From positions 1 to 60,235 of the forward strand of contig QZKS01000090.1 of the NCBI GenBank assembly GCA_003599865.1: a stretch of 60,235 nucleotides of DNA, written 5' to 3'. The DNA is from Desulfobacteraceae bacterium (GTDB lineage: Bacteria > Desulfobacterota > Desulfobacteria > Desulfobacterales > SURF-7). The translations under genes and the position numbers were made by a program. The notes beneath the pieces are model-generated. The model searched no databases. It saw nothing but the letters and a program-made list of their open reading frames with translations, and was not told where the DNA came from. This document shows, piece by piece, positions 13,569 to 58,150 of the stretch (position 1 is the stretch's first letter; the number at the start of each line of letters is the position of its first letter).

Positions 13569-13632
13569 GAACATTATGAATCCAACAAGTTGAATTGGTT
13601 TGGACCCGGTAGCTTGTAAAGTCGGAAATAAA

Positions 13633-13668: not shown

Positions 13669-13678
13669 ATTTTTTGGA

Positions 13679-13763
13679 TGGTGCCGAAGGCCGGACTTGA
13701 ACCGGCACGGTTGTTACCACTACCCCCTCAAGATAGCGTGTCTACCAATTCCACCACTTCGGC
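13679..13763 (-). tRNA. tRNA-Leu (anticodon GAG)
   Basis: The 85-nt gene folds as a class II (long variable arm) tRNA. The acceptor stem is GCCGAAG with CTTCGGC, the discriminator is A, and an encoded CCA is present (13679-13681). The D-arm is leucine-like (TGGTGGAATTGGTAGAC). The anticodon stem CTATC/GGTAG has loop TTGAGGG, which gives anticodon GAG, reading CUU/CUC. The T-arm loop is TTCAAGT. It lies 15 bp after the secG stop. Confidence 0.95.
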
Positions 13764-13777
13764 ACAGCGTGCGTTTT

Positions 13778-14137: not shown

Positions 14138-14160
14138 AGGATTCCCAATACGCCTTTTGA

Positions 14161-14916
14161 CTAAAAGTGTATAATTTTGCTGAATACTTCAGGATCCAGA
14201 CTTGCACCGCCAACCAGCGCTCCGTCAATATCCGGCATGGACATCAATTCTGCGACATTGCCCGGTTTGACGCTACCTCCATATAATATCCTGATGGACT
14301 CGGCAAGGTTTTTGTCAAACTTTTTTTCAATCAGAGACCGCAAAAACCGGTGAACCTCCTGTGCCTGATTGCTCGTGGCGGTTTTGCCTGTTCCGATAGC
14401 CCAGACAGGTTCATAGGCGATCACCAGAGAACCCAGGTCCCCTGAAGAAAATCCTTCTAACCCCATTTGGACCTGTTTGTCAAGAACAGAAAATGTTTTG
14501 TCGGCATCCCTTTGCGATTCCGTCTCGCCGATACACATGACCGGTATCAGTTCGGATTGAATGGCCGCGTTGATCTTTTTGTTGACGGATTCATCTGTCT
14601 CACCAAAAAGCTGACGCCGCTCGGAGTGGCCGATAATCACATAACGGCATCCCGCAGATACAAGCATTTGCGCGGAAATTTCACCGGTAAAGGCGCCCTG
14701 TGATTCCCAGAAAAGGTTCTGGGCACCCAGTCCGACATTGGATCCGGCTATTTTTTCGGAAACCAGTGCAAGAGAGGTAAACGTGGGCGCAATCATGATA
14801 TCGGTATGGTTTGCATCGGAAGATAAATCGACAAGCCGTGACGCAGCCTCAACCGCCTCTGCGCAGGTTTTGAACATTTTCCAGTTTCCGGCAATCAAGG
14901 GTCTTCTCGTTCTCAT
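14161..14916 (-). CDS. tpiA: Triose-phosphate isomerase
   Basis: TpiA interconverts dihydroxyacetone phosphate and glyceraldehyde 3-phosphate. The catalytic Lys is in AGNWKMFKT, His in IGHSERRQLFGE and Glu in YEPVWAIGTG. The phosphate-binding loop ILYGGSVKPGN follows. The start at 14916 is chosen because AAGGAG precedes it; the frame is open 18 bp further. The 251 residues are a normal length. It lies after gapA but is separated from it by a terminator. Confidence 0.97.
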   Translation of the reverse strand: MRTRRPLIAGNWKMFKTCAEAVEAASRLVDLSSDANHTDIMIAPTFTSLALVSEKIAGSNVGLGAQNLFWESQGAFTGEISAQMLVSAGCRYVIIGHSERRQLFGETDESVNKKINAAIQSELIPVMCIGETESQRDADKTFSVLDKQVQMGLEGFSSGDLGSLVIAYEPVWAIGTGKTATSNQAQEVHRFLRSLIEKKFDKNLAESIRILYGGSVKPGNVAELMSMPDIDGALVGGASLDPEVFSKIIHF

Positions 14917-14954
14917 TCCATTTCTCCTTGTCATAGATCATCTTCAATTTTTCA

Positions 14955-15000
14955 GGAAAAATACCTGAAACCATGTTTGCTTCTCCACGGTTTCAGGTAT
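14955..15000 (-). terminator. Terminator between gapA and tpiA
   Basis: A perfect 12-bp stem (ATACCTGAAACC with GGTTTCAGGTAT, 16-nt loop) is followed on the minus strand by TTTTTCC. gapA and tpiA are therefore probably separate transcripts, or linked only by readthrough. Confidence 0.8.
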
Positions 15001-15059
15001 TGTATTCGGATCATCTTCACAATTCATTATACTGATACCGGCTATTTCCTGTTTGCCGA

Positions 15060-16064
15060 TCAGAGCTGTAAGCCGATCATGACTGCCAGATCCACAAGGC
15101 GATTGGAATAACCGGTTTCATTGTCATACCAGGAAAGTACCTTAACCATGTCACTCAGGACATAGGTGGTCGGCCCATCCACGATGGAGGATAAGGGCAC
15201 GCCGTTAAAATCGGATGAAACCAGTGGCTTGTCGCTGTAGCCCAGAATGCCTGCAAGTGATTTTTCAGATGCCTCCTGCATTGCCGCATTGATATCTGAA
15301 ACCGTTATTCCGGATTTTTCAATGGTGACGACCAGGTCGACAATGGATACGTTCGGGGTGGGAACACGAATCGCCAGGCCGTTCAATTTTCCCTTCAGCT
15401 CCGGAAGAACCAGCGCTACGGCCTTGGCCGCACCGGTGGTTGTCGGGATCATCGAAAGCGCCGCCGCCCTTGCCCTTCTCAGGTCTTTGTGCGGAAAGTC
15501 GAGAAGCCGCTGGTCACCTGTATAGGAATGAACGGTTGTCATCAGACCGCATTTGATTCCGAAGTTTTCCAGAAGAACCTTGGCAATGGGGGCCAGGCAG
15601 TTTGTGGTGCAGGATGCGTTGGAGATGATATTATGTTGTCTGGGGTCGTATTGCGTCGAGTTAACGCCCATTACGATTGTAACATCCGGATCGGAAGCCG
15701 GCGCGGAAATGATGACCTTGCGGGCACCTGCCGCCAGATGTTTACCGGCGGATTCACGATCCCGGAACAGTCCGGTACATTCCGCAACAACATCAACATC
15801 AAACTCGCGCCAGCGAAGATTCGCAGGATCTTTTATGGAAGTCACGGCAACGGATTTGCCGTCAATGATAATCGCATCATCCTTTGCGGAAATATTATTT
15901 TCCAGGGTGCCGTGAACCGAGTCATAGGTTAGAAGGTGTGCCAGGGTTTCCGGGTCTGTCAGGTCATTGATCGCAACAACTTCGATATCGGAACGCTCCA
16001 TTGCTGCCCGGAATACGATCCGGCCGATTCTCCCAAAACCATTGATTGCTAATTTGATCGTCAT
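15060..16064 (-). CDS. gapA: Glyceraldehyde-3-phosphate dehydrogenase (type I)
   Basis: This NAD-dependent glycolytic/gluconeogenic enzyme has 334 residues. The Rossmann motif is INGFGRIGR (residues 7-15). The catalytic Cys is in SNASCTTNCLAP. The C-terminal SWYDNETGYSNR is characteristic. A perfect AAAGGAGG precedes the ATG. It is upstream of tpiA on the same strand. Confidence 0.97.
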   Translation of the reverse strand: MTIKLAINGFGRIGRIVFRAAMERSDIEVVAINDLTDPETLAHLLTYDSVHGTLENNISAKDDAIIIDGKSVAVTSIKDPANLRWREFDVDVVAECTGLFRDRESAGKHLAAGARKVIISAPASDPDVTIVMGVNSTQYDPRQHNIISNASCTTNCLAPIAKVLLENFGIKCGLMTTVHSYTGDQRLLDFPHKDLRRARAAALSMIPTTTGAAKAVALVLPELKGKLNGLAIRVPTPNVSIVDLVVTIEKSGITVSDINAAMQEASEKSLAGILGYSDKPLVSSDFNGVPLSSIVDGPTTYVLSDMVKVLSWYDNETGYSNRLVDLAVMIGLQL

Positions 16065-16135
16065 CTTTTTCCTCCTTTGAATAAATTGACTGCAAGAATT
16101 GAATTGTCTGTCACCGATTATTTTTTTTAGAATTG

Positions 16136-16642
16136 CTATGATTGCCCGGGCATAATTTGGGCAGATGATTGTGAAAATGTAAGATCGATCTGTTTCATCA
16201 GCACAAGAGCATCTTCATTGGTTTCCGGATAGTACCGGGGCCGTTTGCCGATGAGCCGGAAACCCAGTTTATGATACAGTGAAATCGCCGGCGTGTTTGA
16301 AGCCCGTACTTCAAGATAAACCGTATCAGCACCTTTTTCAGATGCAATTTGGATGCTTTGCTGAAACAAATAGGTTGCAAAGCCTTTCTTTTGCCATTTT
16401 TGAGCCACACCGATTCTGAAAAGATGCATTTCATCCATGATGATGCGAAAAAAGATATATGCAATGAACTGCGACGGTCGGTCCGGATCGGTAAACGCAA
16501 TGCCGAAGTTGTACGATCCCTCGCAGGTCAATTCATGTAAACAAGAAGTCCGGCTCCAGGGTTTTTGGAAAAGATCATTTTCTATTTCAATAATTTGATC
16601 GATATCTTCTTCCGTAATGGGCATGATACGCCAGGATTCCAA
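16136..16642 (-). CDS. rimI: GNAT N-acetyltransferase, RimI-like
   Basis: The 168-residue GNAT protein has the acetyl-CoA-binding segment RIGVAQKWQKKGFATYL (R/Q-x-x-G-x-G/A motif with a degenerate first glycine). It also has the RimI-typical YLEVRASNTPAISLYHKLGF followed by GKRPRYYPE. RimI acetylates the N-terminal Ala of ribosomal protein S18, but relatives modify other protein N-termini. It is 4 bp after the EIIA-Man gene, so it is the last gene of this leftward operon. Confidence 0.85.
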   Translation of the reverse strand: MESWRIMPITEEDIDQIIEIENDLFQKPWSRTSCLHELTCEGSYNFGIAFTDPDRPSQFIAYIFFRIIMDEMHLFRIGVAQKWQKKGFATYLFQQSIQIASEKGADTVYLEVRASNTPAISLYHKLGFRLIGKRPRYYPETNEDALVLMKQIDLTFSQSSAQIMPGQS

Positions 16643-16646
16643 TCGA

Positions 16647-17060
16647 TTAGCTCCGGCTCTGTCCCTTTAATATTCCGCTGGCAAGGGATATGCTTTTCTT
16701 CCCGAACTCTTCCAGAGCGCTTGCGATTTCGCTAAGGTTCATCTCCGTGCGCAGTCGCAGCGCTTTGATTAAAATCGGGAGATTGACCCCGGACAATACT
16801 TCTACGCGTCCTTCTTCCAGAAAAGAGTAGCTCAGGTTGGACGGCGTTCCGCCAAACATATCCGTAAGAATCAGCACGCCTTGGTTCTGGTGAACCTTTT
16901 TGATCCCGACAGAAATTTTATCTAATAACTTTTTCGGGTTATCTTTTAAATCAATGGATATGGAAACAACGCCTTCCGGTCGATTCCCGAGAATGAATTC
17001 GGCAGCATCGATCAAGGCGTCTCCAAGCTTACAGTGTGTCGCAATAACAATACCGATCAT
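16647..17060 (-). CDS. PTS EIIA component, mannose family
   Basis: The 137-residue protein is an EIIA-Man-type domain. The phosphoacceptor His9 is in IATHCKLG, and the DMFGGTPSN motif is at about residues 67-75. No sugar permease (EIIC/EIID) or EIIB is near. Together with PtsN and RapZ this points to a regulatory PTS, not sugar transport. The usual HPr gene is not adjacent; rimI occupies that position. Confidence 0.88.
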   Translation of the reverse strand: MIGIVIATHCKLGDALIDAAEFILGNRPEGVVSISIDLKDNPKKLLDKISVGIKKVHQNQGVLILTDMFGGTPSNLSYSFLEEGRVEVLSGVNLPILIKALRLRTEMNLSEIASALEEFGKKSISLASGILKGQSRS

Positions 17061-17163
17061 GAATCCTCTTGCTGATAATTTGATTCCCGATTCATCGGGA
17101 GTTGGATGAAATATCAGGAGTTTTTATGAAATCTCATAAACAGAGCCGAATGGGGTTTTAAAA

Positions 17164-18030
17164 CTAATCTCCTTTATCACGATGTGTAATTGAGACCTGT
17201 CTGCCTTGGAGTTTAAGGTGTTCATAAAACTTTTGGGCGATGGTAACACTTCGATGTCTGCCGCCTGTGCACCCGAACGATAAGGTCAGATATGCTTTCC
17301 CCTCCTTTTCATACAAAGGAAGTAAATAGTCAAGCAAATCCATATACTTTTTTAAAAAAGTTTTGGCCTCTTCCGTATCCAGCACAAAATTTTTAACCGC
17401 TTCATTTTCCCCATCATATGGCTTAAGTTCCGGTATAAAATATGGATTCTTTAAAAAACGGACATCGATGATGAGATCGGAATCCTTTGGGATGCCGTAC
17501 TTGAATCCAAAAGACATGATGTGGGTCTGCATGGTGCTGATGGTAATATTTTCATGGATATATTTAAAAATAACGGCTTTTAGCTCATGGATATTCAGGG
17601 CGGAAGTGTCAATAATTTTCCGGGCCTGTTTTCTCAGATTTTGGAGCTGTTCCCTTTCATCGTGGATGCCGTCTGAAATTGTTTTATGGGAAGAAAGAGG
17701 ATGCTGTCTTCTGGTCTGGCTGTAACGTCTCCTCAGAATTTCGTCACTTGCTTCGAGAAACAGGATGTGCATCGTATGCCCATCCGAAGTCAGTTTTTGA
17801 AATACGTTTTGATAGGCTGTAATAAATCCCCTGTCCCGAAGATCCATTCCAAATACAATGCCGGATATTTCCGGAGAATGATTGAGAGGAAGCTCTATAA
17901 ATTGTGGTAAAAGCGCAACCGGCATGTTGTCGACACAATAGAAACCGGCATCTTCAAATGCGGCAATGGCGGTGCTTTTTCCTGATCCGGAAAGTCCTGA
18001 AATAATGGTTATATTTTTTTTTATATCCAC
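17164..18030 (-). CDS. rapZ: RapZ/YvcJ family nucleotide-binding protein
   Basis: The 288-residue protein has Walker A GLSGSGKST (residues 12-20) followed by FEDAGFYCVDNMP, and the C-terminal RapZ motif TLSFGCTGGRHRSV. In E. coli RapZ is an RNA-binding adapter that delivers the sRNA GlmZ to RNase E and so controls glucosamine-6-phosphate synthesis. In deltaproteobacteria the RNA target is unknown. It lies downstream of ptsN with a strong hairpin between them. Confidence 0.93.
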   Translation of the reverse strand: MDIKKNITIISGLSGSGKSTAIAAFEDAGFYCVDNMPVALLPQFIELPLNHSPEISGIVFGMDLRDRGFITAYQNVFQKLTSDGHTMHILFLEASDEILRRRYSQTRRQHPLSSHKTISDGIHDEREQLQNLRKQARKIIDTSALNIHELKAVIFKYIHENITISTMQTHIMSFGFKYGIPKDSDLIIDVRFLKNPYFIPELKPYDGENEAVKNFVLDTEEAKTFLKKYMDLLDYLLPLYEKEGKAYLTLSFGCTGGRHRSVTIAQKFYEHLKLQGRQVSITHRDKGD

Positions 18031-18075
18031 ACTGAAAAAACCCGGGAGATGTTCCCCGATATCACATAAGGGGAG

Positions 18076-18101
18076 GGGGAGTTATGAATTCATAACTCCC
18101 C
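18076..18101 (-). repeat. 26-bp perfect palindrome between ptsN and rapZ
   Basis: A 13-bp perfect inverted repeat with no spacer (GGGGAGTTATGAA and its complement) sits in the 129-bp gap between ptsN and rapZ. No T run follows on the coding (minus) strand, so it is not a standard terminator. It may be an RNA-processing site, a partial attenuator or a protein-binding site. Confidence 0.6.
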
Positions 18102-18159
18102 TTGTTTAAATACAAAAAATCAGTTTTAATGAAACAGACAGGATGACCTTGCGGTCCGG

Positions 18160-18618
18160 TTAAAAATCTTCATCGTCCTCTTCAATAATTGAAATGACAT
18201 CATCGACTGAAGAAATATTTCGCAGTTTTTCTTTGAAGTCTTCATTTTTTAAAAACCGGGAAATCCGTGCCAGCAGTTTTAAATGAAGTCCTGTCGAATT
18301 TTCCGGTGTGAAAAGCAGGAAAAAGATATGGGTCGGCCTGCCATCCATGGATTCAAAGTTAACCCCTTTTTTACTCAATCCAAAACCGACAATGAGCGAA
18401 TCCAGTTCTTTGAGTTTGCCATGCGGAATACCAATGCCGCCGTCAATACCGGTGCTGCCCAATCTTTCTCTTTCCATTAGAATACGGACCAGCTTTTCAT
18501 GATCAATACCGGTCATTTTCGCGACCGGTAAAACCAGCTCTTCTAACACTCCTTTCTTATCTGTTGATTTCAGATCGGTTAGAATGGTTTCTTTATGTAA
18601 AACTTCAAGGATTTTCAT
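18160..18618 (-). CDS. ptsN: Nitrogen-regulatory PTS EIIA (PtsN)
   Basis: The 152-residue protein has the phosphorylation site His66 in GIGIPHGK and the surrounding LGSTGIDGG motif. PtsN transmits phosphorylation state to regulators of nitrogen, potassium and envelope functions. It sits directly after hpf and rpoN, the conserved proteobacterial rpoN-hpf-ptsN-rapZ order. The C-terminus is a short acidic tail (EEDDEDF). Confidence 0.94.
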   Translation of the reverse strand: MKILEVLHKETILTDLKSTDKKGVLEELVLPVAKMTGIDHEKLVRILMERERLGSTGIDGGIGIPHGKLKELDSLIVGFGLSKKGVNFESMDGRPTHIFFLLFTPENSTGLHLKLLARISRFLKNEDFKEKLRNISSVDDVISIIEEDDEDF

Positions 18619-18645
18619 GTATCCTCACCAGCAGTTATATCCGGA

Positions 18646-19182
18646 TTAGATCCGATTTGGTTGAATCAGACCGTAATCTCCGTCTGATCTACGATAAAGC
18701 ACGTTCACACGATCTGTTCTGGCATTTGTAAAAACAAAAAAATGATCATCAACCAAGTCCATTTGCATGACGGCCTCTTCTACATCCATTGGTTTATATT
18801 CGATATTCTGGATTTTTACTTTTCGGGGGATATCTTCCTCCATATATTGCATGTCCGGAGAATCAAACCCTTTATTTTTTTTCCTGGATGTCGGTCTTCT
18901 TTTTTTGATTTTCTGTTTATTTTTTTTTAACTGGGTTTCCAGTTTATCCAGAACCATATCAATGGCTGAATACATGTCATTTGTTTCTTCCTTCCCGACG
19001 ATATTTAATCGGTCTCCGGACAAACTGATTTCAGCGATATGGCGGAATTTTTCAACGGATAGCACGACATTTGCTTCAGCCGGATTATCAAGGAGTTTAT
19101 CTAATCTGTTCAGTTTATCCTGAATAAAAGATTTTAAATGGTCGGAAGAATCAATGTTCTTAAAGGTTACAGATGTCTGCAT
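18646..19182 (-). CDS. hpf: Ribosome hibernation-promoting factor, long form
   Basis: The 178-residue protein has the N-terminal S30AE domain (residues about 1-100, ending in a Lys-rich KKNKQKIKKRRPTSRKK run). It also has the C-terminal dimerisation domain with KPMDVEEAVMQMDLVDDHFFVF. The long form joins two 70S ribosomes into inactive 100S dimers in stationary phase. The start is 10 bp after the rpoN stop, within the rpoN operon. Confidence 0.95.
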   Translation of the reverse strand: MQTSVTFKNIDSSDHLKSFIQDKLNRLDKLLDNPAEANVVLSVEKFRHIAEISLSGDRLNIVGKEETNDMYSAIDMVLDKLETQLKKNKQKIKKRRPTSRKKNKGFDSPDMQYMEEDIPRKVKIQNIEYKPMDVEEAVMQMDLVDDHFFVFTNARTDRVNVLYRRSDGDYGLIQPNRI

Positions 19183-19191
19183 AGTACCTCC

Positions 19192-20631
19192 CTAATATTG
19201 TTTACGTTTATTGGAAGATAGTACTCCTAACATTTCTCGGTACTTGGCAACAGTTCTTCGTGCAATGTCAATATTTGCCTCCTTTAATAGTTTTGCAATT
19301 TTATCATCGCTATACGGTTTCCTTGTATCCTCGGATTCAATGAGCTTACGTATTTTGTCCTGTACGCTGGTAGATGCGATTGCGTCGCCATGCACACGGC
19401 TGATGGAGCTGTTGAAAAAATACTTGAGTTCGAATATGCCCTGCGGGGTATACGCATATTTGTTCGTCGTAACCCGACTGATCGTTGACTCGTGCATTTC
19501 GATATCCTGGGCGACGTCCCGCAGAACCATTGGTTTCAGGTGTGAGATCCCTTTTTCAAAAAAGTCTTTCTGAAATCGCAAAATGCTTTCCATCACCTTA
19601 TAGATGGTTTTCTGGCGCTGGTGAATACTTCTGATCAGCCAGGCAGCGGATCTCATTTTATCTTGAAGATAATCTTTTGTTTTACTCTCAATTTTTTCAC
19701 CCCGACTGACGGCTTTTTTATAGTAGGGGTTGATTCGCAATTTGGGCATCCCATCATCATTGAGAATAATGACAAATTCATCTTCATACTTGTAAACATA
19801 GATGTCTGGACTGATGTATTGGGGTTCGTCATCGGAATACTCGCGTCCGGGTTTGGGTTCCAGCATCTTAATGACGTTTACCGCGGAAATGACTTCTCTG
19901 ATGTTGATTTTCAGCGCTTTGCAGATGGCCTTGTAGTTTTTGTTTTCCAGATGCTTGATATGATTTTTGATGATTTCAACAACAGTCGAGTCATCCAGCC
20001 CCAGATGTCTGGCCTGGATCAGCAGGCACTCTTTCAGATCTCTGGCGCAAACGCCAATCGGGTCGAACGTTTGGAGCATTTTTAAGATATGTTCTACCAT
20101 TCCGACTGGTTGCTTGCTTGTTTCCGCAATCTCTTCGACACTGATTTCAAGATAACCATCGCGATTCAGATTCCCGATAATCAGGCTTCCAACCTGTTCT
20201 TCAACATCGTTCGGCAGGATCATTAATAGCTGCCATAACAAATGATCTTTTAACGATTTTTTGCTGGAAATGAAAGTTTCGTAGGCAGGGGTTTCTCTTC
20301 TTTCTGTTTCATAATTGGTCCTGCCGGGCGTGTTGTATTCATCCAGGTAGTTGGTCCAATCGATATCGCTTTGGATGTTTTCTTCAACGCGGACTTCTTT
20401 CAACTCACTTGTATTGGTATCGATACTGGATAATTCAGCCTGTTTTTCAGCGGGATTCTCCTCCGGCGGATCCTGAAATTCTTCCAGTGCCGGGTTATTT
20501 TCCAGCTCCTGACTGATCATATCAACCATTTCAAGCCGGGATAACTGGAGAAGTTTGATCGCCATCTGCAGCTGAGGAGTCATGATCAGCTGTTGCGTCA
20601 GTTTGAGTTGTTGTCGTAATTCAAGTGCCAT
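19192..20631 (-). CDS. rpoN: RNA polymerase sigma-54 factor
   Basis: The 479-residue sigma-54 has the Gln/Leu-rich region I (residues 1-50, QQLKLTQQLIMTPQLQMAIK), which contacts enhancer-binding activators. An acidic region II follows, then a core-binding domain, and the C-terminal RpoN box ARRTVAKYRE, which reads the -24 element. The start is 6 bp after the lptB stop. It is functionally relevant here: a sigma-54 promoter precedes the pilin gene and an NtrC-type activator gene lies beside it. Confidence 0.97.
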   Translation of the reverse strand: MALELRQQLKLTQQLIMTPQLQMAIKLLQLSRLEMVDMISQELENNPALEEFQDPPEENPAEKQAELSSIDTNTSELKEVRVEENIQSDIDWTNYLDEYNTPGRTNYETERRETPAYETFISSKKSLKDHLLWQLLMILPNDVEEQVGSLIIGNLNRDGYLEISVEEIAETSKQPVGMVEHILKMLQTFDPIGVCARDLKECLLIQARHLGLDDSTVVEIIKNHIKHLENKNYKAICKALKINIREVISAVNVIKMLEPKPGREYSDDEPQYISPDIYVYKYEDEFVIILNDDGMPKLRINPYYKKAVSRGEKIESKTKDYLQDKMRSAAWLIRSIHQRQKTIYKVMESILRFQKDFFEKGISHLKPMVLRDVAQDIEMHESTISRVTTNKYAYTPQGIFELKYFFNSSISRVHGDAIASTSVQDKIRKLIESEDTRKPYSDDKIAKLLKEANIDIARRTVAKYREMLGVLSSNKRKQY

Positions 20632-47794: not shown

Positions 47795-50700
47795 ATGAAC
47801 AAAAATAATCCGGCAGGATCTGTGTTGGTCATCGGCGGTGGTATCACCGGCATGCAGTCTGCTATTGATCTGGCAGAATCAGGTTTTTATGTTTATCTGG
47901 TTGAGGAAACATCCGCGATCGGCGGAAAAATGGCTCAGCTGGATAAGACATTTCCTACCAATGACTGCGCCATGTGAGTCATTTCTCCGAAACTGGTCGA
48001 GGTCGGCCGGCATCTGAACATTGAACTTCTCACGCTTTCAAAGGTGAATTCGATCGAAGGAGATGAAGGGAACTATACTGCAACCATCACCAAATCTCCT
48101 CGATTTGTGGACATGGATAAATGTATCGCCTGTGGTGCCTGTACAAAAAAATGCCCGGGTAAAAAACCGGATGAATACAACGAAGGGATTATCAGTCGAA
48201 AAGCCATATATGTACCCTATCCTCAAGCGGTTCCACTGAAATACGCGATTGATCCGGAAATATGTCTGTACCTTCAAAAAGGAAAGTGCGGAACCTGCAA
48301 GAAGGTATGCCCGACAGGTGCAATCAATTATGACGACAAGGAAGAACAGGTTACCCTGAAGGTCGGATCGGTTATCGTCACAGCCGGTTTTAAAGCATTC
48401 AATCCGGCAAAACTGGACCAGTATCAGCATGGGACGCTTCCCAATGTGGTGACGAGTCTTGAATTCGAAAGATACCTTTCCGCCGGCGGACCTACGGCAG
48501 GACATATCAAACGGCCATCGGACGGCAAAGAACCCCGGAAAATCGCCTGGCTTCAGTGTGTAGGATCAAGGGACATCAACAAGTGTGACAATGAATACTG
48601 CTCTTCCGTATGCTGTATGTATGCCATTAAAGAGGCGGTCATTGCCAGGGAGCATCTGGGAAAAGATTGCCGGCCGGCTATTTTTTTTATGGATCTCCGG
48701 TCACATGGGAAGGAGTTTGAAAAATATTACAACCGCGCCAAAGCAGATGGTGTGCGGTTTATCCGTTCAAGGGTACACAGTATCACCGAAATTGATCAAT
48801 CCGGAACCCTTGATCTCCGTTATGTGACGGAGTCCGGCGATATCATGAACGAAACTTTTGATATGGTCGTCCTTTCCATCGGTATGGAAGCGCCGGATTC
48901 GATCATGGACCTTGCCGGAACCCTTGGGATTGAACTGAATCAATATCACTTCGTAAAGACCGATGACCTTTCGCCGGTCGCGACTTCAAAACCGGGCATA
49001 TATGTTGCCGGAGTTGCCCAGGGATGCAAGGATATTCCACAGTCGGTTATGGAAGCCAGTGCTGCTGCCTGTTCTGCCGGTATCAGTCTGGCCCGGGCCA
49101 GAGGAAGCCTTGTCCGGGAAAAAATCTTTCCGCCGGAAAAACAGATCACCGGACAAGAGCCCCGGATCGGAGTGTTTGTCTGCAATTGCGGCGTGAATAT
49201 CGGGGGCATTGCAGATGTCCCGGCAGTTGTAGAATATGCAAAGACGCTTCCCGGCGTTACCTATGCAGAAGAAAACCTGTTCTCCTGCAGTCAGGATACC
49301 CAGGATAAAATGGTGGAGGTGATCCGGGAACAGAATTTGAATCGTGTTGTGGTGGCCGCCTGTACGCCGAGAACCCATGAACCTCTTTTTCAGGAAACCC
49401 TGCGGAATGCAAATCTGAATCCGTATCTGTTTGAGATGGCCAATATCCGGAATCAATGCACATGGGTTCATTCAGACAACAAAGAGATTGCCACCCGGAA
49501 AGCAAAGAATCTGGTTAGCATGAGCGTATCCCGGGCAAGGCTTCTGGAAGCGGTCCCGGCACTGTCCGTAAACGTCGACAAGTCGGCGCTTGTTGTCGGC
49601 GGAGGTGTTGCCGGAATGACTGCGGCATTGAGCCTGGCAAATCAGGGATTCCCTGCCACAATTGTGGAAAAGACGGAAGAACTTGGCGGCGCAGCCCGGG
49701 ATATCCATAAAACCTGGCAAGGTCAGGATGTTCAGAAATTTCTGAAAGACCTAATATCAAAAGTGGAAAATCACCCGGACATCAATGTCATGATCAATGC
49801 GGAGATCACCGGGGCATCGGGTTTTGTCGGTAATTTTGAAACAATGATCGCAGCAGGTGGTAACACATCGATCGTCAGACACGGTGCCACCATTATCGCT
49901 ACCGGCGGTCAGGCCTCGGAAACAGATGAATATCTGCTTGGTAAAAATCCCAATGTGACCCGATGGCATGATCTGGAACATAACCCGGACAAGTTGAAGA
50001 AAGCGGAATCGGTTGTTTTTATTCAATGTGTCGGTTCCCGGGATGAAAAAAGACCATACTGTTCCCGGATCTGCTGCACGGCATCCATCAAACAGGCCAT
50101 TCTGGCAAAGGATCTGAATCCGGGTGCGGATGTTTATGTTTTGTATCGGGATATCCGGACTTTTGGTGATCGGGAAGTGTTATACAAGGAAGCCCGGAAC
50201 AAGGGGGTCATTTTTATTCGTTACTCCCTTGAAAATAAACCGGTCGTTCAGGAGGTCGAGGGGGGCCTTGAGGTATTGGTCTTTGATCCGGTTCTGCAGA
50301 AGAAACTGGCGATTCAGGCAGACCTCGTCAACCTGGCCACGGCGATCGTACCCCATGACAATGAAAAACTGGCTTCATTATACAAACTTTCGATGAATGA
50401 AGATAAGTTTTTCATGGAAGCTCATGCAAAGCTCAGGCCTGTTGATTTTGCAACAGACGGCCTTTTCCTCTGCGGACTGGCACATTATCCGAAACCGATC
50501 GAGGAGAATATCGCCCAGGCAATGGCAGCGGCAAGCCGTGCCGCAACGATACTGTCAAAACCGTCCATTCAGGTTTCTCCTCTGGTGTCCCAGATCAATG
50601 CCGAAAAATGTATCGGCTGCGGGCTTTGTGTCAGTATATGCCCATTCGGTGCCATTGAACTGGAAGAGATAGAAGGTAAGGGCAAACGGGCAAAGAACAT

Positions 50701-50815
50701 ATCCGCCTCCTGCAAGGGTTGCGGACTGTGTGCTTCCTCCTGCCCGCAGAAGGCAATTGATATGCTTCATTTCAGGGATGAACAGATTGTTGCAGCGGTT
50801 ATTGCAGCAGCGTGA
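47795..50815 (+). CDS. hdrA: HdrA-type flavoprotein, selenocysteine-containing, tandem fusion
   Basis: Read through an in-frame TGA at 47975-47977 (codon 61) as selenocysteine, this is a 1006-residue HdrA. Unit 1: Rossmann GGGITGM (about 9-15), Sec in NDCAMU, ferredoxin Cys 110/113/116/120 and 157/165/168/172, and the CVGSRD cluster region (255-274). Unit 2 restarts with the HdrA N-terminal domain [12 protein letters not shown] (about 460). It has a second FAD motif VVGGGVAGM (about 600), a second CVGSRD and two C-terminal ferredoxin motifs (about 939-985). Other HdrAs have Cys where Sec is. HdrA's FAD is the bifurcation centre in methanogen Hdr. Confidence 0.92.
47975..47977 (+). other. Selenocysteine UGA codon in first hdrA
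   Basis: TGA is codon 61, within [18 protein letters not shown]. The frame stays open and strongly HdrA-like for 945 codons after it. Homologues have Cys at this position. Confidence 0.93.
47993..48010 (+). promoter_or_regulatory. Bacterial SECIS hairpin, first hdrA
   Basis: A 7-bp stem CTGGTCG/CGGCCGG (with wobble pairs) has apical loop AGGT. The loop begins 22 nt after the UGA and has G in its first two positions, as the bacterial SECIS model requires. The stem and loop are identical in the second hdrA. Confidence 0.8.
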
Positions 50816-50876
50816 CAAACCGGGTTCGGTATGAGGATTTCCTGAACCGGATAACCAAACAATAAAGGGTGAAGTT

Positions 50877-51626
50877 ATGGCAGAATTTGAGCCAAAAATT
50901 GTAGCGTTTCTTTGCAACTGGTGTGCATACGCCGGTGCGGATCTGGCGGGGGTATCCCGGATGCAGTATCCTTCAAACCTGAGAACGGTGAGGGTGATGT
51001 GTTCCGGAAGAGTGGATCCGGCCTTTGTGGTAAAGGCATTGAAAGAAGGATGTGACGGCGTTCTGGTAGCGGGGTGACATTTCGGTGATTGCCATTACCT
51101 GGAAGGTAATGTAAACGCGGAAAAGAAAATCCAGATGACGCAGAGACTGCTGGATCTGGCCGGAATCGGAAAGGATCGGCTGCATCTTGAGTGGCTGTCA
51201 TCAGCAGAGGCACAACGGTTTGCCGATATTGCCAAAAAAACAGTTGACGCTGTCAGGGCAATGGGGCCGCTTGATCAGGATTTATGCAGCATGCAGCTTG
51301 AAGCTGCGCAACTGACGGTGGACAATGAGGCGGTCCGCTGGCTGGTGGGTAAGGAATTGTCCATCACATCCAAGGGCGATGTCTATGGACGATCATGGGA
51401 TGAGACAAAATACGAAGAAGTTCTCGATCATGCGCTGGAACGGGAATATCACAACAATTTGATTATTCTGGCAATGAAAGACGGCTGTTCTTCTGTTCGA
51501 GAGATCAGCAAAAGAACCGGAATTGCCGTATTGCGGATTTCCTATCTGCTTGCCGATCTGGAAAGAACCGGCAGGGCGGAATTCAAGGGAATGACGGACA
51601 GCACAGCCGCATTTGCAGCACGATAA
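50877..51626 (+). CDS. mvhD: MvhD-type iron-sulfur protein, Sec at the second motif, with C-terminal extension
   Basis: Read through the TGA at 51075-51077 (codon 67), this is 249 residues. The MvhD domain (1-140) has [13 protein letters not shown] (second Cys at residue 16), then VLVAG-U-HFGDCHY, where Sec replaces the first Cys of the usual GCHFGDCHY. MvhD carries a [2Fe-2S] cluster and passes electrons between hydrogenase or another partner and HdrA. The extra 100 residues end in [20 protein letters not shown], which resembles a winged-helix DNA-binding fold. A GGGTG ribosome-binding site precedes the ATG; the gene follows hdrA by 61 bp. Confidence 0.92.
51075..51077 (+). other. Selenocysteine UGA codon in first mvhD
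   Basis: TGA is codon 67 in VLVAG-U-HFGDCHY. The MvhD family has Cys here (GCHFGDCHY). The reading frame continues for 182 codons. Confidence 0.93.
51093..51111 (+). promoter_or_regulatory. Bacterial SECIS hairpin, first mvhD
   Basis: A perfect 8-bp stem CATTACCT/AGGTAATG has loop GGA (or 7 bp with TGGAA). The loop begins 23 nt after the UGA and starts with G. Confidence 0.8.
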
Positions 51627-51635
51627 GGAGTCATA

Positions 51636-54600
51636 ATGGGATCGGTTACAGTAAATGAGAAAAGCGGATCGGTTATGGTGGTTGGCGGCGGTATCGCCGG
51701 TATGCAGGCCGCGCTGGATCTGGCCAATTCGGATTACAAGGTGTACCTGGTTGAAAAAGGCCCCACAATCGGTGGGCTGATGGCCCGGCTGGATAAGACT
51801 TTTCCGACCAATGATTGTACCATGTGAGTCATCTCGCCCAAACTGGTCGAGGTCGGCCGGCATAACAACATCGAACTGATAACAAACACTGAAGTCAAAG
51901 GTATTGAAGGGGAACCCGGCAATTTTACCGTCACCCTGCAAAACAATCCCCGTTACATTGATCCGTCAAAGTGCACGGGATGCGGTGATTGCGCTAAGCG
52001 TTGTCCTGCTTCCGCCGTCAATATCATTAACAAGGGATACAACGATCGACGGGCTACCTATATTGAATACGCACAGGCGGTTCCATTGGCGTTTGCCATT
52101 GATATGGACGCCTGTATCGGGTGCGGATTGTGTGAAAATGTCTGTCTGGCGAAAGCCATCAACTATGCGGATAAAGTTAAAGCAACAGAAGTAAGGATCG
52201 GTTCAATGATCCTGGCCCCGGGAACAAAGGCCTATGATCCTTCGGAACTGGATTATCTTGGGTATGGCAGGTATCCCAATGTTGTTACAGCCGACGGGTT
52301 TGAAAGAATCCTTTCCGCCGGCGGCCCTTATTTCGGACATGTCATGCGTCCGCTGGACCGGCAGGAACCCAGAAGCATCGCCTGGCTGCAATGTGTCGGC
52401 TCCAGAGATACAAACCGGTGCGGGAACGGTTATTGCTCTTCCGTATGCTGTATGTATGCCACCAAGGAAGCCATGATTGCCAAAGAACATATTCACGGAG
52501 ATCTGGATTGCGCGATTTTCAATATGGATATGAGAACCTTTGGCAAGGATTATGAAAAATATTTTCTTCGTGCCCGCGACAAGGAAGGCGTCCGGTTTGT
52601 CAAGGCCCGTGTTCATACGGTCACGGAAAATCCGGAAACAGGAGATCTGATTGTCCGGTATGCATCGGACAGCGGCGAAATGAAAGAGGAAACCTTTTCC
52701 ATGGTCGTGCTCTCCGTCGGCCTGACTATCCCCGACACAGCCATTGAGCTGGCGAGACGTCTTGATATTGATCTGGATAAATACCATTTTTCAAAATCAG
52801 ATCCATTCGCTCCGGTTGAGACATCCCGTAAAGGGATTTATACCTGCGGCGTATTCCAGGGACCTAAGGATATTCCCGGGTCGGTTACCGAAGCCAGTGC
52901 AGCAGCGTGTCTGGCAGGATCCGAACTGTCCGGATCAAGAGGAAAAGATATTGAAGTCATTGAACTGCCCGAACAGATGGATGTGGAAGGGCAGGAGCCA
53001 AGGATCGGTGTATTTGTCTGCAACTGCGGCATCAACATCGGTGGAATCGTTGATGTCCCGGCGGTTCAGAAATATGCGGCAACCCTTCCGAATGTCGTTT
53101 TTGCGGATTCCAACCTGTTTACATGCAGCCAGGATACCCAGGAGAAGATCAAGGAAAAGATTATTGAGCATAAATTGAACCGCGTGATTGTCGCGTCCTG
53201 CAGTCCCAAGACCCATGAAGCCATGTTTATGGAAACACTGGAGGCATGCGGTCTTAACCGGTACCTGTTTGAGATGGCCAATATCCGGAATCAGAATTCC
53301 TGGATTCATTCCAAAAGTCCTGAACTGGCAACCCGGAAAGCCAAAGATCTTGTTCGGATGGCAGTAGGTCGGGCTGCGACTCTTTACCCGATGCAGGAAA
53401 AAAGGATTCCGGTGAATCATCGTGCCATGGTAATCGGTGGTGGCATTGCCGGGATGAATGCGGCACTGAATCTCGGAAAACAGAACTTTGAGGTCGTCCT
53501 GATCGAAAAAGAATCAGAGCTTGGAGGTTTTGCCCGGAAACTTCACCATACCATTGAAGGCGGGGATATTCAGGAATATATACGGAAACTCTCAGCCGAG
53601 GTAAAAGCCCATGACAAGGTGGAGATACTTCTCGACACCGAAGTGGCAGGTTTTGGCGGATACAAAGGGAATTTCAAAACCGATGTGGCGGTCGGAAAAG
53701 ACAGAGAACCTAGGAAAATTGAACATGGCGTGATCGTCGTTGCCACAGGCGCCAATGAATACAAGCCCGAAGAGTTCGCTTATGGACAGAGTGACAGGAT
53801 TCTCACCCAGGTGGAACTGGGAGACCTGCTGGAAGAAAAGGGAACCGCTGATCTGGAAACCGTCGTCATGATTCAATGTGTGGGCTCCCGGAATGAGAAA
53901 ATGCAGGAGTGTTCCAGAATCTGCTGTCAGAATGCGGTGAAAAATGCACTTGTCATTAAAAAGCAGAACCCGGAAACCCAGGTTTTTATCCTGTACCGGG
54001 ATATCCGTACTTATGGTCTGATGGAAGACTACTACAAAGAGGCAAGGGATCTCGGGGTTATTTTCATGCGGTTTGAATCGGAAGATCCACCGGAGGTCAA
54101 AGTTGAGGGAGATAATATTATTGTTACAACCACGGATCATGTTTTGCAGCGGAAGGTGGAGATCCAGGCGGATCTCTTAACCCTCAGCGCGGGCATGAGA
54201 CCTTCGGATACCGCAAAACTGAGCAGTATTATGAAGCTGAATGCCAATCAGGAGGGATATTTTATTGAGGCTCATGTCAAGCTGAGACCGGTAGATATGC
54301 CTGGCGAAGGCATTTTTCTTTGCGGTACGGCCCATGGCCCCAAGTTGATTTCAGAAACCATCTCCCAGGCACAGGCCGCTGCATCAAGGGCAGTGACCTT
54401 TCTGGCCAGACCGGAAATCAAGCTGTCCGCCATTACGGCAAAGGTCGATACACAGCACTGTGTAAAATGTCTGACATGCCTCAGAACCTGTCCGTATAAT
54501 GTTCCGGCTTTCAATACGGAAAAAAAGGTGATCGAGATCGATGAGGCTATGTGCCACGGATGCGGAGCATGCGCCGGAGCATGCCCCAGACAGGCAATCC

Positions 54601-54668
54601 AGCTGGGTTTTTATAATGATGAACAGATAATCTGTAAGATTGATGCGCTACTGGCAGGAGGAATGTAA
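51636..54668 (+). CDS. hdrA: Second HdrA-type flavoprotein, selenocysteine-containing, tandem fusion
   Basis: Read through the TGA at 51825-51827 (codon 64), this is 1010 residues. It is a paralogue of the first HdrA with the same two-unit plan: [16 protein letters not shown] (about 10-25), Sec in NDCTMU, ferredoxin Cys clusters at about 113-123 and 160-170, CVGSRD, then [12 protein letters not shown] and a second FAD motif [14 protein letters not shown]. It ends in two ferredoxin motifs ([14 protein letters not shown] and [12 protein letters not shown]). It starts 9 bp after mvhD-1 and overlaps mvhD-2 in TAATG. Sequence divergence from the first copy indicates an old duplication, not a recent one. 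Confidence 0.92.
51825..51827 (+). other. Selenocysteine UGA codon in second hdrA
   Basis: TGA is codon 64, in [18 protein letters not shown], the same place as in the first copy. Confidence 0.93.
51843..51860 (+). promoter_or_regulatory. Bacterial SECIS hairpin, second hdrA
   Basis: The 7-bp stem and AGGT loop are identical to the first hdrA hairpin and lie at the same spacing (22 nt). Nearby codons between UGA and stem differ. Confidence 0.8.
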
Positions 54669-55081
54669 TGGCTGATTTTGAACCGACGATCATAGCATTT
54701 TGCTGTGAATACTGAGGATATTCTGCGGCGGACCTGGCAGGTTCCATGCGGCTGGACTATCCTTCAAATATAAAAATTATTCGGGTCCCCTGTACCGGTA
54801 AAGTGGATGTGATGTATCTGTTGAGAGCCATTCAAAAGGGCGCAGACGGAGTATATGCGGTAGGATGCCTCGAAGGGTCATGCCATTACAACGAGGGTAA
54901 TTTCAGGGCCAGGGAAAGAATAGAACATGTCAACACCCTGCTTGATGAAATAGGGATTCCCGGCGAACGAGTCCGTATGTATAATCTCTCATCCGGTGAA
55001 GGTCCGACTTTTGCCGCATATGCAAAGGAGATGACGGAGCATATCCGGAAACTCGGGCCGAATCCTTTGAAAAACAAGTAA
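54668..55081 (+). CDS. mvhD: MvhD-type iron-sulfur protein, Sec at the first motif
   Basis: The ATG overlaps the hdrA-2 stop (TAATG). Read through the TGA at 54713-54715 (codon 16), this is a 137-residue minimal MvhD. Sec falls in FCCEY-U-GYSAADLAG, at the Cys of the usual [13 protein letters not shown]. The later motif keeps cysteines (VGCLEGSCHY). The first MvhD shows the opposite pattern. It lacks the C-terminal extension of the first copy. It should carry electrons between HdrA-2 or HdrCB and an external donor. Confidence 0.92.
54713..54715 (+). other. Selenocysteine UGA codon in second mvhD
   Basis: TGA is codon 16, so ordinary annotation would start the gene late at 54746 and lose the N-terminal motif. 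Confidence 0.92.
54730..54745 (+). promoter_or_regulatory. Bacterial SECIS hairpin, second mvhD
   Basis: The stem GGACCT/AGG-(T)-TCC has six pairs and one bulged T, with apical loop GGC. The loop begins 20 nt after the UGA and starts with G. It is the least regular of the five hairpins. Confidence 0.65.
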
Positions 55082-55110
55082 GATCATTTAACTATAAAGA
55101 GGAGCAGATT

Positions 55111-56433
55111 ATGGCTGAGGGAGCGATAAAGCTTGGCGGTAAGAAAAAGAAGAGTACGATCATGGAAATGGTCAAAGAGATCCTTCCGGACGGAGGGAAT
55201 CTGAATGCCTGTCTGACCTGCGGCGCCTGTTCATCCGGATGTCCGGCAACGGGCTTGGAGGGGATGGATGCCAGGAAGTTTCTGCGTATGGCAGCCCTGG
55301 GGATGGATGAAGAGATTCTGAAATCCAACTGGCCGTGGATGTGTACCATGTGCCAGCGTTGCATTTACGTCTGTCCGATGAAGATCGATATTCCGCAGCT
55401 TATTTTCAACATTCGTGCAATGAGACCCAGGGATGAACGCCCCAAAGGTATTCTGGAGTCCTGCAATATGGCGATGAAGAACGATACCCTGAGCGCCATG
55501 GGAACAACTGAAGAGGATTTTCAATTTGTCGTAGAGGATGTTCTGGGGGAATACCAGGAGGCACAACCGGAATTTGCCGAAATGGAGGCGCCGATTGACA
55601 AAGAGGGTGCGGAGTTTTTTCTGAACCAGAATTCCCGTGAGCCGGTGACTGAACCGGATGAGATGGTACCGTTGTGGAAGATTCTTCACCTTGCCGGTGT
55701 GAACTGGACTTATGGCAGCAAGGGATGGGCAGGTGAAAATTATTGCCTGTTTATTGCCGATAATGAGAACTGGAAAAAAATGCTGGAGATCAAGACGGCT
55801 CAGGTGCATAAGCTGGGGTGCAAGACGTACCTCAATACGGAATGAGGGCACATTACATTCGCAGTCCGGGCCGGACTGAAAAAATTCAAAATTGAGCATA
55901 ACTTTGATGTTAAAAATATTTACGAATATTATGCGAGATGGATCCGTGAAGGAAAATTGAAACCCAGTTCCGAATGGAACAGGGAACGAAAGATCAAGTT
56001 TACCCTGCAGGACCCCTGCCAGATTGTCCGCAAGAGTTTTGGAGACAAGATTGCGGACGATCTCCGATATGCGGTAAAGGCATGTGTCGGGGAAGAGAAT
56101 TTTGTGGACATGACCCCGAATAAATCCAACAATTACTGCTGCGGCGGCGGCGGCGGATTTCTGCAATCCGGTTTCAAGGAACAGCGTCTTGCCTATGGAA
56201 AGATAAAGGATGATCAGATAAAGGCAACCGGAGCGGATTATGTGATTGCCGGGTGCCATAATTGTCATGCGCAGATTCATGAACTGAGTGAACACTATGG
56301 AAGCCACTATCCGGTTGTTCATTTCTGGACGATACTTTGCCTTGCACTGGGAATACTGGGTCCCAATGAGCGAACCTATCTGGGAGACGATTTGAAGGAA
56401 GTCAATGTTTTTCATCCCGAGTCCGCAATGTAA
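55111..56433 (+). CDS. HdrC-HdrB-like fusion (HdrD type), selenocysteine-containing
   Basis: Read through the TGA at 55843-55845 (codon 245), this is 440 residues. The HdrC part has two [4Fe-4S] motifs (Cys 34/37/40/44 and 78/81/84/88). The HdrB-like CCG part has Sec in LNTE-U-GH, where related proteins have ECGH. The second CCG motif is DPCQ (303), NYCCGGG (343/344) and GCHNC (382/385). CCG domains hold the noncubane [4Fe-4S] clusters that reduce disulfides in Hdr; the reaction here is unknown. It follows mvhD-2 by 29 bp with an AGAGGAG ribosome-binding site. Confidence 0.92.
55843..55845 (+). other. Selenocysteine UGA codon in hdrCB
   Basis: TGA is codon 245, in LNTE-U-GH, replacing a conserved Cys of the first CCG motif. 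The second CCG motif, with all its cysteines, lies after it in frame. Confidence 0.92.
55862..55878 (+). promoter_or_regulatory. Bacterial SECIS hairpin, hdrCB
   Basis: A perfect 7-bp stem CAGTCCG/CGGACTG has loop GGC. The loop begins 23 nt after the UGA and starts with G. Confidence 0.8.
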
Positions 56434-56472
56434 ATTGTAAATATTGCAATAGATTTTTAACAGGAGGGGCAA

Positions 56473-57144
56473 ATGATTGTTGCCGAAAGAAAACCCTTTG
56501 AAGAAATAAAAGAACTTGTTAAAGAGTATAAAAAAGTTCTGGTGGCCGGATGCGGAACCTGTGTAGCGGTTTGTCTGACCGGCGGAGAGAAGGAGGTCGA
56601 CATCCTCAAGACCGAACTTGATATGGCTCGAAGACTGGAAGACAATCCCATGTCGTTAGCCGGATTTACCGTTGAACGGCAGTGTGATCGGGAATACCTG
56701 GAAGCATTTGATTCCATGGTGGGTGATTATGATGCGATCCTTTCCATGGCATGTGGTGCCGGGATTCAATTCCTGGCGGAGAGGTTTCCACAGATACCCG
56801 TGTTGCCGGCAGTCAATACGACTTTTATTGGTGTCAATCAGGATATCGGATGGTATGAAGAACGATGTCGGTCATGCAGCAATTGCGTGCTGGGGGATAC
56901 CGGCGGTATCTGCCCGGTAACCATGTGCGCCAAAGGACTGTATAACGGTCCCTGCGGTGGGACCAACAAGGGCAGTTGTGAGATTTCAAAGGATCAGCCG
57001 TGTGCATGGTATATGATCTATGAACGTCTTGAGAAACAGGGCCGCCTGGACCGTATTACAAGGTTTACCCCGGTACAGAACTGGGAAAATCAGGTGCCCA
57101 GAACATTGATTCAACCTGGCTACAGAAAACCGGAAAAACAGTAG
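56473..57144 (+). CDS. metV: MetV: methylene-tetrahydrofolate reductase partner protein
   Basis: The 223-residue protein has an N-terminal AGCGTCVAVC motif (Cys 27/30/34) and a C-terminal Cys cluster CRSCSNCVLGDTGGICPVTM followed by CAKGLYNGPCGG. These match MetV, the iron-sulfur/zinc protein found with MetF in acetogens. It passes electrons to the MetF flavin. It is between hdrCB and metF on one transcript (39 and 12 bp gaps). No in-frame TGA: all cysteines are encoded by TGT or TGC. Confidence 0.9.
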   Translation: MIVAERKPFEEIKELVKEYKKVLVAGCGTCVAVCLTGGEKEVDILKTELDMARRLEDNPMSLAGFTVERQCDREYLEAFDSMVGDYDAILSMACGAGIQFLAERFPQIPVLPAVNTTFIGVNQDIGWYEERCRSCSNCVLGDTGGICPVTMCAKGLYNGPCGGTNKGSCEISKDQPCAWYMIYERLEKQGRLDRITRFTPVQNWENQVPRTLIQPGYRKPEKQ

Positions 57145-57156
57145 AGGGAAGTCGAT

Positions 57157-58080
57157 ATGAAATCAGACAGCAAGTTGGAAAAAATATTGAAAGCTGGTCA
57201 CTTTGCGTTTACAGGTGAGTTAGGTCCCCCTCGTGGTGCGAATGTTGAACATGTCAGGGAAAAGGCAAAACCGCTTGTCGGGAATGTAGATCTGGTGAAC
57301 ATCACGGACAATCAGACCGCCATGGTCCGGATGGCCAGTTGGGCAGCAGCGCTGATTGCCATTCAGGAAGGATTGGAACCCAACTACCAGATGGTCTGCC
57401 GTGACCGGAACCGTCTGGCTATGCAGGCGGATATCCTGGGCGCATATGCGCTTGGAATCAAGAATATTCTCTGCCTTTCCGGCGATCATCAGAAATTCGG
57501 TGATCATCCTACCGCAAAAGGGGTGTTTGATATTGATTCCATGCAGCTTGTGAATATGGTGAAAACCATGAGGGATGAAGGTAAATTTCTGGGTGGGGCC
57601 GATATTGAGGTACCGCCGAAACTGTTTATCGGCGCCGCGGCAAATCCATTTGCCGAGCCGTTTGAGTGGCGGGTTCACCGGCTTGCCAAAAAAGTCTCTG
57701 CCGGTGCGGATTTTATTCAGACCCAATGCGTTTTCAACATGAAAAAGATGCGGGAATGGATAAAGCGGGCCGTGGATATGGGACTTACGGAAAAGACATA
57801 TATTCTGGCGGGTGTGACCCCCATGAAAAGTATCGGTATGGCCAAGTATATGGCATCTAAAGTACCTGGAATGGATGTTCCGGAGGAGATCATCAAAAGA
57901 CTTCAAGGCGCTGAAAAAGGCAAGGTTGCAGATGTCGGAATTGAGATCGCCTGTGAGCAGATTGAGGAGTTTAAGGAAATGAAAGGGGTAGCCGGAGTGC
58001 ATCTGATGGCCATTGAATGGGAGCATAAGGTGCCGGAGATCGCTGAACGAGCAAAGGTTTTGCCAAGACCACAGGTGTAA
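57157..58080 (+). CDS. metF: Methylene-tetrahydrofolate reductase MetF
   Basis: The 307-residue TIM-barrel flavoprotein has GELGPPRGAN near the N-terminus, NITDNQTAMVRMA, NILCLSGDHQKFGDHP and ADFIQTQCVFN. It converts methylene-THF and methyl-THF. In the Wood-Ljungdahl pathway the step is reductive for acetogenesis and oxidative for acetate breakdown. The MetVF type usually takes electrons from a partner complex, not from NADH alone. It is the last gene of the Hdr/MvhD operon, followed by a terminator. Confidence 0.95.
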   Translation: MKSDSKLEKILKAGHFAFTGELGPPRGANVEHVREKAKPLVGNVDLVNITDNQTAMVRMASWAAALIAIQEGLEPNYQMVCRDRNRLAMQADILGAYALGIKNILCLSGDHQKFGDHPTAKGVFDIDSMQLVNMVKTMRDEGKFLGGADIEVPPKLFIGAAANPFAEPFEWRVHRLAKKVSAGADFIQTQCVFNMKKMREWIKRAVDMGLTEKTYILAGVTPMKSIGMAKYMASKVPGMDVPEEIIKRLQGAEKGKVADVGIEIACEQIEEFKEMKGVAGVHLMAIEWEHKVPEIAERAKVLPRPQV

Positions 58081-58123
58081 TTCTTTTATTATTTAATAAG
58101 GGAGTTGTATCTTCCGATTCGAT

Positions 58124-58150
58124 AAAAACCCCGGGTTTGCCGGGGTTTTT
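58124..58150 (+). terminator. Terminator of the hdr-mvhD-metVF operon
   Basis: A perfect 11-bp stem AAAAACCCCGG/CCGGGGTTTTT with a 5-nt loop lies 44 bp after metF. The T run is inside the stem; CATTTC follows, then more Ts. Confidence 0.9.

Follow-up and report, generated by a model that had tools for sequence, protein, structure and literature searches.

Five consecutive predicted selenoprotein genes in an Hdr-MvhD-MetVF operon of a Desulfobacteraceae bacterium

HdrA bifurcates electrons at flavin adenine dinucleotide (FAD), being fed by MvhD and having HdrBC and ferredoxin as its exits, and in the complex of Moorella MetVF is a partner beside Hdr-MvhD (PMC9012536, PMC5736913). HdrA, MvhD and HdrD/GlpC have already appeared in print as selenoproteins (PMC1794560, PMC2702500, PMC13188914). 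The glpC-hdrA-frhD-frhG-frhA operons described in Syntrophobacter fumaroxidans and Desulfotalea psychrophila (Zhang et al. 2006, PMC1794560) comprise four selenoprotein families in five genes, the hydrogenase FrhA/FrhG included. Here we describe a stretch of 60,235 nucleotides from a Desulfobacteraceae bacterium (assembly GCA_003599865.1, contig QZKS01000090.1, positions 1 to 60,235; hereafter the window) that encodes an hdrA1-mvhD1-hdrA2-mvhD2-hdrD-metV-metF operon, in which the in-frame UGA codons of five genes very probably specify selenocysteine (Sec) in one predicted electron-bifurcating Hdr-MvhD-MetVF complex. Like the operons of Zhang et al., it would combine Sec-containing HdrA, FrhD/MvhD and a GlpC-type Fe-S oxidoreductase in a single deltaproteobacterial operon; unlike them, it has five consecutive predicted Sec genes, two hdrA-mvhD pairs and a terminal metVF, and no hydrogenase subunit, neither FrhA nor FrhG being found among its seven genes in a domain scan. 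A preliminary description, made from the DNA sequence alone, had presented the run of five in a single operon as exceptional; the array is real and recurs in relatives, but it has to be placed beside these five-gene operons with four selenoprotein families.

The operon occupies positions 47795-58150 of the forward strand, as delimited by intergenic gaps and a hairpin scan. All genes are co-directional and the gaps from hdrA1 down to metF are 61, 9, -1, 29, 39 and 12 nt. Families were assigned with Pfam and NCBIfam, the NCBIfam matches scoring below the curated cut-offs; the families are, in order, HdrA, FlpD/MvhD, HdrA, FlpD/MvhD, an HdrC-HdrB-type (CCG) Fe-S oxidoreductase, MetV and MetF. The hdrA1 gene (47795-50815, with a TGA stop at 50813-50815) encodes a fused (type II) HdrA of 1006 amino acids with predicted Sec61 (UGA at 47975-47977, hairpin at 47993-48010). 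It is followed by mvhD1 (50877-51626, PF02662), coding for an MvhD of 249 amino acids with a C-terminal extension and predicted Sec67, numbered 69 in the alignment counted from 50871 (UGA at 51075-51077, hairpin at 51093-51111). The second fused (type II) HdrA, of 1010 amino acids, is encoded by hdrA2 (51636-54668) and carries predicted Sec64 (UGA at 51825-51827, hairpin at 51843-51860), while mvhD2 (54668-55081, PF02662) codes for 137 amino acids with predicted Sec16 (UGA at 54713-54715, hairpin at 54730-54744). The hdrD-like gene (55111-56433) encodes an HdrC-HdrB fusion (hdrCB) of the CCG family, 440 amino acids long, recognised by PF02754, Fer4_8 and an HdrB-like fold, with predicted Sec245 (UGA at 55843-55845, hairpin at 55862-55878).

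The preliminary description had claimed that five neighbouring genes carry one in-frame TGA each (at 47975, 51075, 51825, 54713 and 55843) in place of a cysteine conserved in the family, with homology continuing beyond it. Its claims are borne out: the frames are open when TGA is read through, relatives have TGA or Cys codons at all five sites, and downstream of the TGA the ratio of nonsynonymous to synonymous substitution rates (dN/dS) is 0.04-0.09 in comparisons with two loci of the same genus (L046 and L047), except for hdrA1 against L047, where dS is saturated. Judged by these ratios, selection after the TGA codons is purifying. The chance that five random single-base mutations to TGA would all hit Cys codons is about 0.005 when susceptible codons are counted, and conservation across genomes is much stronger evidence than this figure. 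The search for selA, selB, selC and selD that had been advised found all four, as the genome encodes SelA, SelB, SelD and a tRNA-Sec (74 bits, anticodon UCA). In this genome (G000), of which the window is contig C29, bases 1-60235, the selD gene (G000:C17:72425-73348) itself carries one internal TGA.

A hairpin resembling a selenocysteine insertion sequence (SECIS) lies 3' of every TGA, with 6-8 bp, a loop of 3-4 nt and a loop start 23-26 nt past the first TGA base; the two hdrA genes have the loop AGGT, the remaining three GGA or GGC. Hairpins with at least 6 pairs, a loop of 3-7 nt that has G as its first or second base and a loop start 20-31 nt after the TGA were sought in the unique sequences of loci L044-L083 and L089-L168 and of the window, the duplicates L097, L101 and L102 having been removed first. 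They were present in 98% of 55 Sec sequences of hdrA, 93% of 54 of hdrD, 100% of 32 at the first mvhD site and 97% of 37 at the second. The corresponding shares among Cys orthologues were 13% of 94 for hdrA, 0 of 4 for hdrD, 21% of 117 for the first mvhD site and 3% of 117 for the second, and codon-shuffled Sec sets yielded such hairpins at 3-6%. Pairing at the positions of the window stems was found in 88-98% of cells in the Sec sets versus 50-58% in the Cys sets.

In a gap-free alignment of HdrA2 with chain A of PDB 5odc, Sec64 falls on residue 197, and HdrA1 has the same NDC-x-M-U motif. Predicted Sec64 of HdrA2 thus corresponds to position 197 of the methanogen HdrA, as does Sec61 of HdrA1 by the common motif. 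Cys197 of one HdrA serves as a ligand to the N-terminal Fe-S cluster of its partner HdrA, and in fused HdrAs Cys197 and the N-terminal domain are split between the halves (PMC9012536). The fused HdrA of the window, which matches Rossmann-type FAD-binding domains twice (near residues 10-50 and 600-640) and gives two separate alignments onto 5odc_A, has the Sec and no N-terminal domain in its first half, and the N-terminal domain and no Cys near the corresponding place in its second. This order of halves is opposite to that of HdrA3/4 of anaerobic methanotrophic archaea (ANME; PMC9012536). The structure 9sfi has a non-standard residue, X, at the HdrA site (X197 of chain A) and at both MvhD sites (chain K), which is taken as Sec because HdrA and VhuD of Methanococcus maripaludis are selenoproteins (PMC11097638).

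The MvhD family has five cysteines that are invariant over 21 sequences, and two of these are the Sec sites. The two predicted Sec residues of the window are placed by the alignment at two different sites among these five cysteines of the [2Fe-2S] subunit, that of MvhD2 at the first MvhD site and that of MvhD1 at the second; the MvhD model has a predicted local distance difference test score (pLDDT) of 91.2. Across 15 HdrD sequences neither residue 245 nor Cys212 varies, and HdrD has a complete second CCG motif. Residues 167-432 of the HdrD model (pLDDT 76.3) superpose on HdrB chains with Z scores of 17.3-17.9 and root-mean-square deviations of 2.8-2.9 over 242-253 aligned residues, EtfD (9ojn) and 3kwl ranking above the HdrB chains in the same comparison. 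Sequence searches of hdrD against the PDB aligned the HdrC-like and the C-terminal HdrB-like parts and did not align the Sec region. From the order of elements in the fold, Sec245 probably lies near Cys78 of HdrB, in the ligand-bearing turn of the first CCG domain. Here Cys78 is what we take to be the ligand numbering of HdrB; the motif VTVC78NGC81 is visible in the HdrB-chain alignments.

The complete array hdrA(U)-mvhD(U, site 2)-hdrA(U)-mvhD(U, site 1)-hdrD(U)-metV-metF was found in 21 of 146 loci, a ratio that is not a frequency, the loci having been picked by similarity to hdrD or mvhD1. These represent 16 distinct genomes after subtraction of five contigs judged by their length to be duplicates (L097=L080, L101=L065, L102=L054, L234=L090 and L238=L098), and the carriers include the Olavius algarvensis symbionts Delta 4 (L090) and Delta 3 (L098) and Desulfococcaceae bacterium HSG8 (L091). 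Among 389 genomes of the order, 346 have an hdrD match at E <= 1e-40, with exactly one TGA in all matches listed. The extended mvhD1 type is present in 54 of 379 genomes, and the best 50 matches (at least 60% identity) each have one TGA; nine of 16 weaker matches, each from a different genome and one of them from this genome, have no stop. Mixed Sec/Cys arrays occur in L109-L112, L119, L121 and L156. Lokiarchaeota, Bathyarchaeota, Chloroflexi, Bacillota and some Desulfobacterota have tandem arrays in which the sites that were read are Cys codons (e.g. L117, L122, L118, L143 and L113). Distant relatives have TGC or TGT at the sites and mostly no hairpin. In the mvhD1-like genes of L148, L150, L158 and L163 (Eisenbacteria, Methylomirabilota and an unclassified bacterium) the first MvhD site is the one with TGA and the second has Cys; mvhD1 of the window shows the opposite arrangement.

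Compared with L046, the window shows 71% identity in hdrA1 and 88-95% from mvhD1 to metF. The first HdrA of L046 (9665-14101, reverse strand) has 1478 amino acids and a GltD-like NAD(P)H-binding insert. A gap of about 1.4 kb, similar in size and place, was found in L074, L091, L170, L232, L235, L239 and L242, the identity of the domain having been read only in L046; in L170 the interruption lies in a separate HdrA, not in the first HdrA of the array.

The same genome contains an all-Cys array, hdrD-mvhD-(hdrA fragment)-hdrA-mvhD-hdrA-mvhD-metV-metF, in which each site that was read is TGC or TGT (L169, G000:C38:8000-27900, positions 4144-15365). Directly after it, at 15738-19207 of the same locus, lie a second UCA tRNA with U73, a SelB-family gene and, as the next gene identified downstream, that of a YedE-type putative selenium transporter; an IscA/HesB-like gene stands between the array and the tRNA. 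U73 is the discriminator base of tRNA-Cys type, and the pair matches selC*/selB* in its UCA anticodon, in U73 and in the selB paralogue downstream (Mukai 2017, as reviewed in PMC7609411). The first base pair of the tRNA is G1:C72, unlike the A1:U72 of the Desulfobacterales selC* form and of most other opal tRNAs fetched, and the SelB-family protein (SelB*) has degenerate GTPase motifs. SelB*-type matches above 340 bits occur in 22 of 242 genomes of the order. Twenty-one SelB* loci (from this genome and 20 others) were examined: an opal tRNA is present in 19, always with U73, and Cys-type hdrD, hdrA or mvhD genes share the stretch with the pair in nine (L169, L205, L209, L210, L212, L214, L217, L221 and L222). 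Switch I is also altered in SelB* of L209, L217, L221 and L222.

Contig C38 is possibly a contaminant of the bin: its GC content is 0.491 versus 0.451 in the window, and its tetranucleotide correlation with the window is 0.921 versus 0.933-0.974 for four other contigs. The pairing of Sec and Cys arrays is nevertheless not peculiar to this bin, because complete arrays of both kinds also coexist in G045, G096, G165 and G208 (L241/L231, L066/L225, L242/L229 and L070/L228); SelB* and YedE stand beside none of the Cys arrays in these four genomes. Elsewhere in the genome of the window, a second hdrD, which likewise has an internal TGA and shares 91% identity with that of the window, adjoins a Cys-type hdrA-mvhD-metV-metF set (L173, G000:C59:1-20000, positions 12215-13531, reverse strand), further hdrA and mvhD genes with internal TGAs occur on C51, C78 and C9 (L170, L171 and L172), and five of the 15 MvhD-domain matches contain TGA.

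In the mechanism that we propose, two fused HdrA-MvhD modules and one HdrCB-type module would pass electrons to or from MetVF, whichever way the Wood-Ljungdahl pathway runs, the two HdrA-MvhD modules acting in series or in parallel. Sec at position 197 would be a ligand to the N-terminal Fe-S cluster, both halves being contributed by one chain, and the Sec of HdrD may sit in the turn that bears the ligands in the first CCG domain. At these positions selenium may tune electron transfer among the flavin, the clusters and MetVF, and when selenium is scarce the other, all-Cys array of the genome might take over. The all-Cys twin beside the selC*/selB*-like pair and the YedE gene suggests a selenium-dependent exchange of the whole complex. 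A more specific version seems rather unlikely, namely that matched five-Sec and all-Cys complexes are swapped as whole units by selenium status, and that an opal tRNA of selC* type, a SelB* with degenerate GTPase motifs and YedE are coupled to the Cys version, either as sensors of selenium or of charged tRNA or as the means by which the five UGAs are recoded to Cys once selenium is exhausted.

The five genes are read as selenoprotein genes because their UGAs stand at conserved cysteines, the hairpins are in register, and SelA, SelB, tRNA-Sec and SelD are present in the genome. It is extremely improbable that the TGAs stem from sequencing error, end decayed genes as true stops or reflect a reassigned code. 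Errors and pseudogenes are ruled out by the same codons in 16 genomes and by the purifying selection past the TGA, and the in-register hairpins contradict them too; reassignment is ruled out by TGA ending 13 of the 38 long open reading frames (ORFs) of the window (at least 200 codons), one of them antisense to hdrD. Since hdrA1 itself terminates at TGA, this codon functions as a stop in the organism. Neither of two objections foreseen in the preliminary description, a reassigned code and unrelated stop codons in close relatives, holds: TGA is an ordinary stop elsewhere, and the relatives have TGA or Cys codons at the sites. That a second opal tRNA (a selC*-type tRNA-Cys), together with SelB*, inserts Cys at some or at all five UGAs, always or under selenium scarcity, comes into question because C38 carries the selC*/selB*-like pair, with Cys-type hdr/mvhD genes nearby in nine of 21 loci, and all five UGA sites are Cys in relatives. 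It is nonetheless very unlikely, given that a canonical tRNA-Sec, SelB, SelA and SelD exist in the genome, that the GTPase motifs of its own SelB* are degenerate, and that the array copy linked to the pair already has Cys codons. Moreover, the same-genus genome G205 has a five-UGA array (L046), and its sole SelB* match is a canonical-type SelB of 30% identity. A further alternative, that all five genes encode selenoproteins while the two HdrA-MvhD pairs and HdrD belong to separate complexes with nothing but a transcript in common, is a possibility that we consider doubtful; hdrD frequently occurs without hdrA or mvhD in the stretches examined and single hdrA-mvhD-metVF sets exist (L064 and L173), but the gene order recurs in 16 genomes and all-Cys arrays of other lineages retain the hdrA-mvhD-hdrA-mvhD core.

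Several points weigh against five Sec residues in one bifurcating complex. Sec incorporation, the complex and its activity are predictions from sequence, and the second UCA tRNA with U73, which immediately precedes the SelB-family gene of C38, could insert Cys at UGA. The hairpin criterion was fixed only after the hairpins of the window had been seen. Stem covariation is weak, with one pair per stem changed on both sides in 1 to 15 sequences each, the clearest being a change from G-C to T-A in 15 of 54 hdrD sequences; as the SECIS stems are nearly invariant, covariation contributes little. The hdrA1 of the window is without the NAD(P)H-binding insert of L046, so that its electron donor may differ from that of L046. 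Among relatives, L060 is without hdrA1, L064 has a single hdrA-mvhD pair, L081 has Cys in hdrA and mvhD and retains Sec in hdrD, and hdrD stands without the array in many loci examined.

The remaining genes of the operon, metV (56473-57144, PF12225) and metF (57157-58080, PF02219), have no internal TGA. Downstream of metF lies a terminator-like hairpin of 11 pairs (58124-58150), which has the most pairs among the terminator-like sites of the region (16 found versus 12.4 expected). A promoter scan gave results at chance level (14 found versus 15.1 expected), and no promoter is claimed. Rfam at gathering thresholds detected a single tRNA in the window and nothing else, and a plasmid search returned one record with a partial match. 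A scan of the window for further frames with a single internal TGA gave 14 segments which, besides hdrA2, were judged by eye to be antisense, overlapping or upstream.

Five predicted Sec residues at or near Fe-S ligand positions in one predicted complex, an all-Cys paralogue in the same genome and all-Cys bacterial and archaeal relatives together amount to a natural experiment on why selenium is worth its cost to cells in electron bifurcation, with a benefit that can be tested. The locus is also a warning that core energy genes of anaerobes can be broken up or lost in automatic annotation.

Among other known systems, Desulfobacterium autotrophicum HRM2 likewise has Sec-containing hdrA, hdrL, hdrD and mvhD, with hdrA/hdrL beside mvhD; it differs in having nine separate hdr loci, and its description contains no run of five Sec genes with metVF (PMC2702500). 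In the literature searched, largely in the form of partial texts, no account of five consecutive selenoprotein genes with metVF was found, and an earlier mention is possible. Methanococcus maripaludis offers a parallel to the twin arrays, since Sec and Cys isoenzymes of HdrA and Vhu/Vhc are present in one genome and switched by selenium, with Sec in HdrA and VhuD; this system is, however, archaeal and governed by the regulator HrsM, and the parts of that account available to us mention neither MetVF nor an HdrD-like selenoprotein (PMC11097638). The MetFV-HdrABC-MvhD complex of Moorella thermoacetica has a fused HdrA, MvhD, HdrBC and MetVF clustered likewise (PMC9012536, PMC5736913), and the genes for HdrA, HdrBC, MvhD, MetV and MetF are together in the window too, where a complex of this type is predicted. 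Moorella has one HdrA and one MvhD, and the window two of each, together with a fused HdrCB and five predicted Sec residues. The HdrA, MvhD and HdrD families were each known as selenoproteins before, and the operon extends a known kind of selenoprotein operon.

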